Shown piece by piece: positions 56,548 to 59,878 of a stretch of 64,000 bases of DNA. The stretch is from Thermoleptolyngbya sichuanensis A183 (GTDB lineage: Bacteria; Cyanobacteriota; Cyanobacteriia; Elainellales; Elainellaceae). Positions within the stretch are counted from its first letter, which is position 1. Every line of letters begins with the position of its first letter. The notes beneath the pieces were generated by a model, which had not been told where the DNA came from, did no database searches, and saw only the letters and a list, made by a program, of their open reading frames with translations. The stretch covers positions 2,976,001 to 3,040,000 of the forward strand of contig NZ_CP053661.1 of the NCBI RefSeq assembly GCF_013177315.1, written 5' to 3'. Position numbers and translations under genes: made by a program.

Positions 56548-56619
<72 letters not shown>

Positions 56620-57299: not shown

Positions 57300-58835
57300 C
57301 TATTCCAGAATGCCCATGCCTTCGAGGTGTCGAAAGAGGCTGGCATCGAGGTAATTAATCCGGGCCAGGGGAGCTAGGGCGGCGAGGACTTGTTGGCCGT
57401 AGCTGCGGTAGTTTACACGGGTGTCGAGCAGAGCAACCACACCCTGGGACTCGCGGGCAGGGGCGATCGCCCGTTGCAGTTCGCTCAGCGCTTCGGGCAA
57501 TAGATAGAGCCGAAACCAATCCTGGCGCTGCTGTTTGTAGTAGGCGACGCGGCCAGACACCAGCGGCTCCTCTAGCGACGGAATGGGCAGCGTGGTGATG
57601 ACCAGCAGGCTGGGCGCGGGCAAGACGGCCTGCTGCTCTCGCCAAAACTCCCAGCCACATACCAGAATGCCGCGCTCATCCAGACAGGTTTTTTCCACCT
57701 GCACGCGGGAGCCATACTCCGCCGCCAGTTGCGACCCAAGCTGCGATCGCAGCGGCACATCCCCCACTAGCACCACTGTTAATCCCTGCTGTGCTACGTT
57801 CGCCGCCAGCATGGCCCGCAGTTCGCTCATCAGCGCGGGCTGAAACTGGGGCGTGTTGGGCAGGGGAAAGCGATCGGGCAGGTAGAGATGAATAAGCTCG
57901 TGCTGGCGATCGGGCGAAAACTTGAGACAGGTAACATCCTCCAGCCCAATGCGCTGCCGATAGATTTCCGCGTCGGTTTCCTGATCCACCGCGCCGCCCA
58001 CCAGCACCACGGGCTGCTGTATCCACACGGGGCGCAGGAGTTCTGCTAGGTCTGCGGGCGCACAGGCGATCGCAAACTGACCCAGCCGACGGTTTACATC
58101 TGCCCAGATCATCTGCCCCGGCTGCGGATAGTGCTGCCAAAACTGCCGCCAGACATCGGGCAGGGCAGCGGTTTCCTCGGCAAGCCGCTGTGCCAGTTCG
58201 CTCAATACCGCTAGCTCGGCTGCATCTAGCAGATAGCAATCGTAGGGATTTGCCGGATGCTGAAACAACTGGCGGGTGAGCCGCACCCGCATATCTCTAA
58301 TTTGCTCCGTTTGGCTAGGACAGGCCAGCATCAGCGCGTCCCAGTCGGCAGGACGGAGCGTAACGGTTAACTCTTGGCGGGCCCAGCACTCCAGATCATC
58401 TGCACCGTCAAAGATGGTTGGCACTGCGGGCGGAAAGCGGCCTTCATTTCGCAGGCGATCTGCCAGCCAGGATTGGGGCGTAGTCAGCAGCAAACCCTGA
58501 AACCCGTCTTGCGGGAGGCGATCGCCCGTCCGAATTGCCTTTGTTGCCGGAATCCACTGGCGCAACCGGGGAATCTCCACCATCAGCAGGCGCTGCTGCA
58601 CTGCCTCCGGAGCCACCAGCACCGTCGCCTCAGGCCACAGCAGCGCGGGCATCAAATAGCTCAGCCGATAGCGCCCATGATAGCCCGACGGCGCACCCGC
58701 CTGCACCAGCGCACTGCGCCCTAGCCGCAGGGCCCGCGCCACCAGCCGCGCCATCGTCAAATGATGGGGCCAGTAGGGTTCGCCTTGCGCCCGCAAAAAC
58801 GCCCGTAGCTGTTGATGAACCTCGACCTCGATCAC
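57300..58835 (-). CDS. Degenerate DinG/XPD-like helicase homologue
   Basis: The 511-residue protein follows the layout of a DinG-type superfamily 2 helicase, but the ATPase motifs are lost. The Walker A position (residues 45-58) reads QAGAPSGYHGRY, without GK(T/S). The DEAH position (near 141-147) reads IFDGADD. Motif VI near the C terminus reads ELQRAIAPARESQGVVALLDTRV, without the Q-x-x-G-R-x-x-R arginines. The C-terminal part from VSGRVAYYKQQRQDWF still looks DinG-like. It probably cannot hydrolyse ATP and may have a structural or regulatory role. The start is GTG 58835. Assignment to DinG is by pattern and moderately sure. Confidence 0.65.
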   Translation of the reverse strand: MIEVEVHQQLRAFLRAQGEPYWPHHLTMARLVARALRLGRSALVQAGAPSGYHGRYRLSYLMPALLWPEATVLVAPEAVQQRLLMVEIPRLRQWIPATKAIRTGDRLPQDGFQGLLLTTPQSWLADRLRNEGRFPPAVPTIFDGADDLECWARQELTVTLRPADWDALMLACPSQTEQIRDMRVRLTRQLFQHPANPYDCYLLDAAELAVLSELAQRLAEETAALPDVWRQFWQHYPQPGQMIWADVNRRLGQFAIACAPADLAELLRPVWIQQPVVLVGGAVDQETDAEIYRQRIGLEDVTCLKFSPDRQHELIHLYLPDRFPLPNTPQFQPALMSELRAMLAANVAQQGLTVVLVGDVPLRSQLGSQLAAEYGSRVQVEKTCLDERGILVCGWEFWREQQAVLPAPSLLVITTLPIPSLEEPLVSGRVAYYKQQRQDWFRLYLLPEALSELQRAIAPARESQGVVALLDTRVNYRSYGQQVLAALAPLARINYLDASLFRHLEGMGILE

Positions 58836-58914
58836 GCGCTGGTTTCATTCTCCGGTGGACTGTCCTTCATTGTGACATACTCGCTTGGTGGTGTTGGGGG
58901 GAGCGAGGGAGGGG

Positions 58915-58985
58915 AGAAGAATGAAGAATGAAGAACGAAGAGTGAAGAGGCTTCGTTTTTCGTTTTTCGTTTTTTCCGTCCCATC
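58915..58985. repeat. GAAGAATGAA / CGTTTTT short-repeat block upstream of tyrA
   Basis: Purine-rich units (GAAGAATGAAGAACGAAGAG) are followed by CGTTTTTCGTTTTTCG units. It has the same design as at 7307-7410 and 19340-19455. It lies in the divergent region between the DinG-like gene and tyrA. Confidence 0.75.
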
Positions 58986-59038
58986 CCCTCTCCGGTAAAA
59001 TAACGGGACTGCACGATAAACCAGGCGGAGCGCGGGCT

Positions 59039-59878
59039 GTGAAGATTGGCATTATTGGGCTGGGGCTGATTGGTGGGTCGCTGGCGCTGGACTGGCGATC
59101 GCTCGGCCACACGATTTTGGGCATGAGCCGTCGGGCGGAAACCTGTGAGCGGGCGATCGCCCTGGGCGTGGTGGATCGGGCGAGTCCTGACCTGGCGCTG
59201 ATGGCAGAAGCAGCGGTGGTGGTGCTGTGTACGCCGCTGGGGGCGATGGAGGCGACGGTGGAGGCGCTGCTGCCACACTTGCAGCCCGATGCCATCTTGA
59301 CCGATGTGGGATCGGTGAAGCAGCCGATTGTAGGGGCGATCGCCCCACGCTGGCCCCACTTTGTCGGTGGACATCCGATGGCGGGCACGGCCGAAAGCGG
59401 GCTGGAGGCTGCCCAGCGCCATTTATTTGTCGATCGCCCCTACGTGCTGACCCCCATCGACAGCACCCAACCCGCCGATTTGGAAACGGTTGCGGAATTA
59501 GTGCGATCGCTCCAGGCGCGGCTATACCAGTGCCCGCCCGCCGCCCACGATCGCGCCGTTGCCCTGATTTCCCATCTGCCTGTGATGGTCAGCGCAGGGC
59601 TGATTGCAACCTGCTTCGCGGAACCCGATGCAGAGGTGCTGCAACTGGCGCAATGCCTTGCCAGCTCTGGCTTTGCGGACACCAGTCGCGTCGGCGGCGG
59701 CAACCCCGAACTGGGGGTGATGATGGCGCAATACAACCAGACGGCGCTGCTGCACGGGCTGCATCAATACCGCGATCGCCTCGACCAAATGATTCACCAC
59801 GTCGAAACCCAAAACTGGCCCGCCCTGGAAGCGCTGCTCCAGCAAACGCAGCAGGCCCGCCCCCAGTTTCTCCGCTAG
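59039..59878 (+). CDS. tyrA: Prephenate/arogenate dehydrogenase
   Basis: The 279-residue enzyme has the NAD(P) motif IGIIGLGLIGGSLALD at residues 3-18, the VVVLCTPLGAME segment, and the catalytic His in FVGGHPMAGTAESG. It also has a second His in LISHLPVMVSA. It oxidatively decarboxylates prephenate or arogenate in tyrosine synthesis; cyanobacterial enzymes usually prefer arogenate and NADP. The start is GTG 59039, since the Rossmann strand begins at the next residue. Confidence 0.94.
   Translation: MKIGIIGLGLIGGSLALDWRSLGHTILGMSRRAETCERAIALGVVDRASPDLALMAEAAVVVLCTPLGAMEATVEALLPHLQPDAILTDVGSVKQPIVGAIAPRWPHFVGGHPMAGTAESGLEAAQRHLFVDRPYVLTPIDSTQPADLETVAELVRSLQARLYQCPPAAHDRAVALISHLPVMVSAGLIATCFAEPDAEVLQLAQCLASSGFADTSRVGGGNPELGVMMAQYNQTALLHGLHQYRDRLDQMIHHVETQNWPALEALLQQTQQARPQFLR

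Follow-up and report, generated by a model that had tools for sequence, protein, structure and literature searches.

The locus and its predicted fold

The window (the whole stretch of DNA analysed, 64,000 nucleotides from Thermoleptolyngbya sichuanensis A183) contains a minus-strand open reading frame of 511 codons, which starts with GTG at 58835 and stops with TAG at 57302-57300. We refer to its product as an sDinG-type protein, after the short-type DinG group described with a representative from Nostoc sp. PCC 7120 (Cheng 2025, PMC11981726, section 3.9). The features discussed below are:

57300..58835, minus strand: gene of the sDinG-type pseudohelicase, 511 aa, with GTG as start and TAG as stop codon, a Helicase_C_2 match and an AlphaFold2 model of DinG/XPD fold
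58722..58772, minus strand: stretch WPHHLTMARLVARALRL, residues 22-38, family-specific, helix before the former P-loop
58668..58703, minus strand: segment QAGAPSGYHGRY in place of the Walker A P-loop, residues 45-56, modelled with a short helix (48-53)
58395..58415, minus strand: former motif II, IFDGADD, residues 141-147, catalytic E replaced by G
57495..57521, minus strand: DWFRLYLLP, residues 439-447, strongly conserved
57447..57482, minus strand: former motif VI, ELQRAIAPARES, residues 452-463, GR absent in 55/55 aligned members
59039..59878, plus strand: prephenate dehydrogenase-type gene, divergent neighbour, named from a Pfam run on its homologue in locus L085

Domain searches recover little of this protein. 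In Pfam, the protein matches Helicase_C_2 alone, and of this domain only the C-terminal part (27.8 bits against a cut-off of 25.3); this single match could make annotators label the protein a helicase. The same domain is found in 42/42 orthologues, two of which also match DEAD faintly (best E 0.013). The NCBIfam models for YoaA and DinG remain sub-threshold, the best being YoaA (E 5.3e-23), where 81.6 bits compare with an equivalog cut-off of 680. In the literature, the HolC-binding YoaA is characterised by a C-terminal α7 that includes R619/T620 and by a HolC homologue in the genome (PMC11981726, PMC8378479).

The AlphaFold2 model built with 42 orthologues reaches a pLDDT of 91.8 and a pTM of 0.87, with pLDDT below 50 for residues 506-511. 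Its best PDB match is S. aureus DinG (8zef; Z 33.8, 485 residues aligned, rmsd 3.4), and Foldseek against the PDB places 6fws on top (E 6.4e-22), the best 42 rows being DinG, CasDinG, XPD and TFIIH-type chains with Hna at rank 40. A PDB search with the single sequence gave no match; with the orthologue profile, the DinG of 6fwr was found (E 4e-6). The far diverged member L085, which comes from a 1.7 Mb genome and shares just 20-29% identity with each of the 23 remaining rows in alignment A2, yields a model with a pLDDT of 89.3 that again matches DinG/XPD best. The window protein is predicted to have the two-motor fold of DinG/XPD, in which the insert is reduced and the Fe-S segment missing. 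The model aligns with DinG along its length, and the domain borders (MD1, MD2, Arch) are taken from this alignment.

Several features flank the gene. Directly 5' of the start codon (58836-58880) lies an extended -10-like element, TGTCACAAT; a similar upstream element occurs in only 9/41 sequences, the window among them, and does not qualify as a conserved promoter in this set. The gap between the divergent genes (58900-58990) carries short repeats of two kinds, GAATGAA/GAACGAA and TTTTTCG. Past the 3' end of the gene, a tRNA-Val(CAC) is located at 56548-56619, and no ORF of at least 80 aa is listed between 56083 and 57300. The sequence GCGATCGC, known as HIP1, occurs 108 times in the window (1-64000) compared with 2 expected.

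Lost catalytic motifs and conserved positions

When hhalign compares the 42-row orthologue alignment with the intact DinG of the phylum, represented by 11 proteins of other classes, the two align over 500 columns (probability 100, E 1.5e-59, 26% identity). Together with the predicted fold, which extends to the far diverged member, this bears out the earlier note, which had called the protein DinG/XPD-like. In this alignment residues ~45-57 pair with AGTGSGKS, 143-146 with DEAH and 455-461 with QGFGRLIR, and the window protein has no catalytic residues at the P-loop, DEAH and motif VI positions, the catalytic Glu and the arginine finger being among those missing. The strings QAGAPSGYHGRY, IFDGADD and ELQRAIAPARES, from which the earlier note had concluded that Walker A, DEAH and motif VI are lost, are thus found at the homologous places. 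Its description of motif VI as arginine-poor is loose, as two arginines are retained in this stretch; the G-R of QxxGRxxR is indeed gone. Motif III (TSAT) is also lost, and it varies among sDinG-type members.

The loss is shared by the family. Among the 33 loci from GTDB contigs, alignment A1 omits two near copies (L013, L019), L017, whose ORF is cut at 423 aa, and four loci that are partial or interrupted (L025, L031, L032, L034); motif counts refer to 55 members, i.e., 60 rows minus 5 duplicates. A full P-loop (G-K-S/T) at the homologous columns and the GR of motif VI each occur in 0/55. At the P-loop columns (residues 47-58) the letters are variable and the segment is anywhere from 8 to 16 residues long, which means that a nucleotide loop is not being preserved. 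The nearest remnants are a G-K without S/T in L060 and a K-S without G in L033, and the sole formal Walker A pattern in the family lies in the first residues of L082, outside the homologous place. At motif II, D143 is present in 43/55 members, E in 7/55 and H in none; DEAH is never found, and D and E occur together only in L056 and L060, both of which read DEAD. Apart from these DEAD letters in two members, a partial exception, the orthologues have lost the motifs as the window protein has. The ORF of L055 (genome G127, 590 aa) contains three DEGD units, probably an insertion.

The long segment that carries the Fe-S cysteines of intact DinG is likewise absent from the sDinG-type alignment. The cysteines that intact DinG conserves are not matched by conserved ones in the family, whose most conserved cysteines are C200 (83%) and C303 (74%); one member has three cysteines in the region of residues 95-140. 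This absence alone does not imply a lack of helicase activity, because S. aureus DinG is described as an active helicase without Fe-S (PMC12345164). Compared with an active DinG/XPD enzyme, the window protein has the two-motor fold, whereas Walker A, DEAH, QxxGRxxR and the Fe-S cysteines are absent. Intact DinG of the phylum (L035-L045) shows homology over the full length and shares the DWF..LP and DxR...YG positions; in contrast to the window family, it has AGxGxGKS, DEAH and QGxGRLIR in 11/11 and conserved cysteines. E. coli YoaA and DinG, of which DinG has the same fold and YoaA is the better sequence match (92.5 vs 29 bits), differ from the window protein in being Fe-S helicases that have these motifs (PMC8378479, PMC4636137).

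These properties closely resemble the published group. In section 3.9 of Cheng 2025 (PMC11981726), sDinG consists of MD1, MD2 and a compact Arch only, without an FeS or pFeS domain; the ATP-binding residues are missing, and in the Nostoc model an extra helix between β1 and α3 fills the ATP site. Set beside this description of the Nostoc representative, the window protein is also cyanobacterial and consists only of MD1, MD2 and Arch without FeS, and the ATP-binding residues are absent both from it and from the 55-member alignment. Near the old ATP site the window model comprises a strand (42-45), a helix (48-53) and a helix (57-66), i.e., helix 48-53 is predicted at a place like that of the Nostoc helix. 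It is very improbable that the protein has remained an ATPase by means of a nucleotide site that escapes recognition. The DEAD letters of two members and the frequent D143 would fit such an activity; the variable P-loop segment without G-K-S/T, the absent motif VI GR, the changed motif III and the helix after β1, by which the ATP site is taken up in the Nostoc model as published (PMC11981726), speak against it. An sDinG-type protein would probably neither hydrolyse ATP nor translocate.

Other positions are conserved instead. Within WPHHLTMARLVARALRL, W22, H24, R30, R34 and R37 are almost invariant, each being present in 54 or 55 of the 55 members. In DWFRLYLLP, residues D439, W440, F441, L446 and P447 are common to intact DinG of the phylum. 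Altogether, 44 columns are conserved at 90% in both the sDinG-type family and intact DinG, with the same residue in 32/44, and many of the columns with a shared residue lie in the C-terminal motor (P417, P424, K434, D439-W440-F441, L446-P447, D471, R473, Y479-G480). A further 34 columns are conserved in the sDinG-type family only, including H7, H24, R30, R34, R37, R377, R442 and R461. These family-only columns are mildly rich in arginine (7/34), a weak enrichment in an unplanned test (hypergeometric P 0.022).

Distribution, selection and descent

The orthologue profile finds matches in 196/386 genomes of the phylum, 183 of them in the class of the window (its own genome included) and 13 elsewhere. 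The gene is therefore present in 183/186 genomes of Cyanobacteriia, a count which takes the 170 unlisted misses as other classes from the order of listing. Genus g31 (family f19), with genomes of 1.6-1.7 Mb, is no exception, as each of its 16 listed genomes carries the gene. Each class genome has one match except 14/16 of these f19/g31 genomes, for which two are counted; in one of the latter (G105, locus L085) one 482-aa ORF is seen. Among GTDB contigs, a search that reaches close relatives only, 33/33 named relatives are cyanobacterial and 41-80% identical in the best segment. The suggestion of the earlier note that the protein is perhaps peculiar to cyanobacteria fits these results, as the 11 relatives from other classes are intact DinG.

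This distribution differs from that of sDinG as published, which is reported from the three orders Nostocales, Chroococcidiopsidales and Pleurocapsales by a search with E. coli DinG as query (E 1e-5, one strain per order; Cheng 2025, PMC11981726). The restriction to three orders may be because E. coli DinG scores just 29 bits with the family profile. From the class-wide distribution we infer that the window gene is orthologous to the Nostoc sDinG gene. The sDinG kind itself has thus been in print since 2025 (PMC11981726); its near-universality in the class, its likely origin from the DinG of the phylum itself and its gene neighbours are new here.

The gene is under purifying selection. In 7/10 close pairs (>70% identity) dN/dS is 0.10-0.17 (Nei-Gojobori), the other three pairs having saturated dS, and codon use is similar to that of five neighbouring genes (RSCU r 0.91; GC3 0.70 vs 0.58-0.75). 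Mean column identity in the orthologue alignment is only 40%, yet many columns are invariant. The intact frame, the neighbour-like codon use and the low dN/dS agree with the statement of the earlier note that this is not a decaying pseudogene. Interrupted frames do occur in two metagenome contigs (L017, L032), the listed matches in G296, G042 and G030 cross one TAA each, and three genomes are without the gene. That the gene is a decaying relic without function is nevertheless scarcely credible: the selection data contradict it, and the presence in nearly the whole class, small genomes included, and the invariant columns argue against it as well.

A whole-genome search of the window's genome (E 0.001) gave no second PF13307 match, and no intact DinG was seen in it or in the 64 class genomes searched with PF13307. 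A hidden canonical DinG was considered for the extra PF13307 matches in 5/64 of these genomes and rejected for the three that were run against Pfam, L047, L050 and L061, which are ResIII/DEAD proteins; the other two matches are those in G054 C2 (1093 aa) and G011 (1044 aa). Among the 13 genomes of other classes, by comparison, DinG from 11 (L035-L045) is intact with an AGxGxGKS P-loop, DEAH and QGxGRLIR in 11/11; the twelfth (L046) has a partial frame with QGMGRLIR, and G029 is left out of the motif count.

The sDinG-type profile scores the 11 intact DinG proteins with 139-172 bits, E. coli YoaA with 92.5 and E. coli DinG, in a form truncated at the last residues, with 29. It is nearer to the phylum's intact DinG than to either E. 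coli protein, which fits descent from the phylum's own enzyme. Judged by these profile scores, the gene likely descends vertically from the YoaA/DinG-type enzyme of the phylum. An IMG/VR pattern search for phage copies gave 34 candidate stretches with 0 relatives, and the 15 matches in plasmid records (from Paenibacillus, Escherichia, Proteus, Klebsiella and Salmonella) are all below 60% identity, none covering 80% of the query.

The three class genomes without the gene (G191, G280, G344) belong to f35/g88, the only genus listed without it in the class sample; no PF13307 match over cut-off stands in its place, which makes these genomes an obvious contrast for the role of the gene. A 498-aa match in G280 (L077) is a ResIII/Helicase_C protein and so no family member. 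We considered f35 as a Gloeobacter-like basal lineage, with the gene gained after that split, and rejected this because KaiB is present in all three genomes; Gloeobacter is not known to have KaiB. Neither a RecA tree (29/30 rows used) nor an RpoB tree separates out the position of f35, and in the latter three of five outgroup rows group with G175 (91/91) and not with f35. We read the missing gene as a loss within one genus; it may also reflect an early absence that precedes the gain.

Gene neighbours and possible role

The commonest neighbour is a DUF2839 gene, which lies downstream on the same strand in 22/52 loci; a DUF1815 homologue is found downstream in 17/52 and a divergent prephenate dehydrogenase homologue upstream within 5 kb in 15/52, many loci being too short to show these genes. 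Among class genomes with both positions, counted from printed coordinates (for G105, the family position is that of its PF13307 match), the start of DUF2839 lies on the same strand and no more than 300 bases downstream of the gene in 30/61. It is not adjacent in the remaining 31/61, including the window's own genome (DUF2839 at G000:C1:5463472), and it is retained in all three f35 genomes without the sDinG-type gene. Neither observation supports DUF2839 as an obligate partner. In L089, DUF1815 stands beside DUF2839. In three f19 loci (L085, L088, L089), recA is near, slightly farther out and on the opposite strand, a proximity that counts in favour of a role in replication or repair. The order in L085 is ndhN, ldpA, HAD hydrolase and recA; DUF2839 and the family gene come next, both on the other strand, and prephenate dehydrogenase follows. 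Taken together, the neighbours do not clearly point to repair.

This neighbourhood bears on an alternative that we consider unlikely, namely that the fold has been taken over for a structural task that does not involve nucleic acids. Examples would be a task at the membrane, together with the DUF2839 protein, or one in the control of a neighbouring pathway. The close downstream position of DUF2839, by eye a small membrane protein, in about half of the genomes and the recurrent DUF1815 and prephenate dehydrogenase homologues are consistent with it, while the non-adjacency in the other genomes and the persistence of DUF2839 where the gene is missing weaken it.

Another alternative starts from RecC and AddB, which are precedents for a dead half in a two-motor machine. 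The sDinG-type protein could similarly be a substrate-reading or regulatory subunit of an active cyanobacterial helicase or nuclease. We regard this as somewhat less probable still. Retention of the two-domain motor fold, strong conservation without an active site and the family-specific set of conserved positions are all compatible with such a subunit; no helicase or nuclease is present among the recurrent neighbours that were named, most rarer clusters being outside the naming.

According to the sDinG section of Cheng 2025, no function has been studied; a DNA complex is modelled there only partially, on MD2, and the DNA-binding residues of MD1 are missing (PMC11981726). We found no reported function for an sDinG-type protein in the literature and, among the matches listed, no further relevant paper under the name sDinG. 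A precedent for a role that needs no ATP is the pseudohelicase PriA of Deinococcus radiodurans, for which loss of ATPase activity, DNA binding and contact with DnaB are reported (PMC4504706). Both are bacterial helicase-fold proteins kept though the ATPase is lost, in the window protein by prediction. The window protein differs from PriA in belonging to the XPD/DinG family and in being known here from sequence and model alone.

Almost every cyanobacterium examined keeps this dead motor, suggesting a function that is probably not that of a motor. Judged from fold, conservation and precedent, its job is most likely that of an ATP-independent binding scaffold in replication or repair. The full proposal, to which we give a little less than an even chance, is that the window gene encodes a cyanobacterial sDinG, a catalytically dead relative of YoaA/DinG that serves as an ATP-independent clamp or adaptor in one of these processes. 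Such a protein would have kept the C-terminal motor domain (DWFRxYLLP ... DxR...RSYG), would have gained the conserved Arg/His-rich N-terminal helix and might hold single-stranded nucleic acid and/or a partner protein, an adaptor role as proposed for Deinococcus PriA (PMC4504706). A broader version, which we consider possible and rather doubtful, is that the dead helicase is a core gene of Cyanobacteriia that replaced the DinG/YoaA kept by some other classes. It would then serve, free of ATP, as an adaptor at forks or on nucleic acids, one that is retained down to the smallest genomes. If true, this would be the takeover of a repair helicase by a pseudoenzyme across a whole class.

The class-wide, near-universal retention of a motor that should be unable to run goes beyond the description in section 3.9 of Cheng 2025 (PMC11981726), and a protein that nearly all genomes of the class contain, and for which we found no function reported, leaves a gap in what is known of the core biology of cyanobacteria. 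If its role is in replication or repair, it would represent a member of the XPD family wholly turned into a scaffold, and would bear on why no intact DinG is seen in the class genomes searched.
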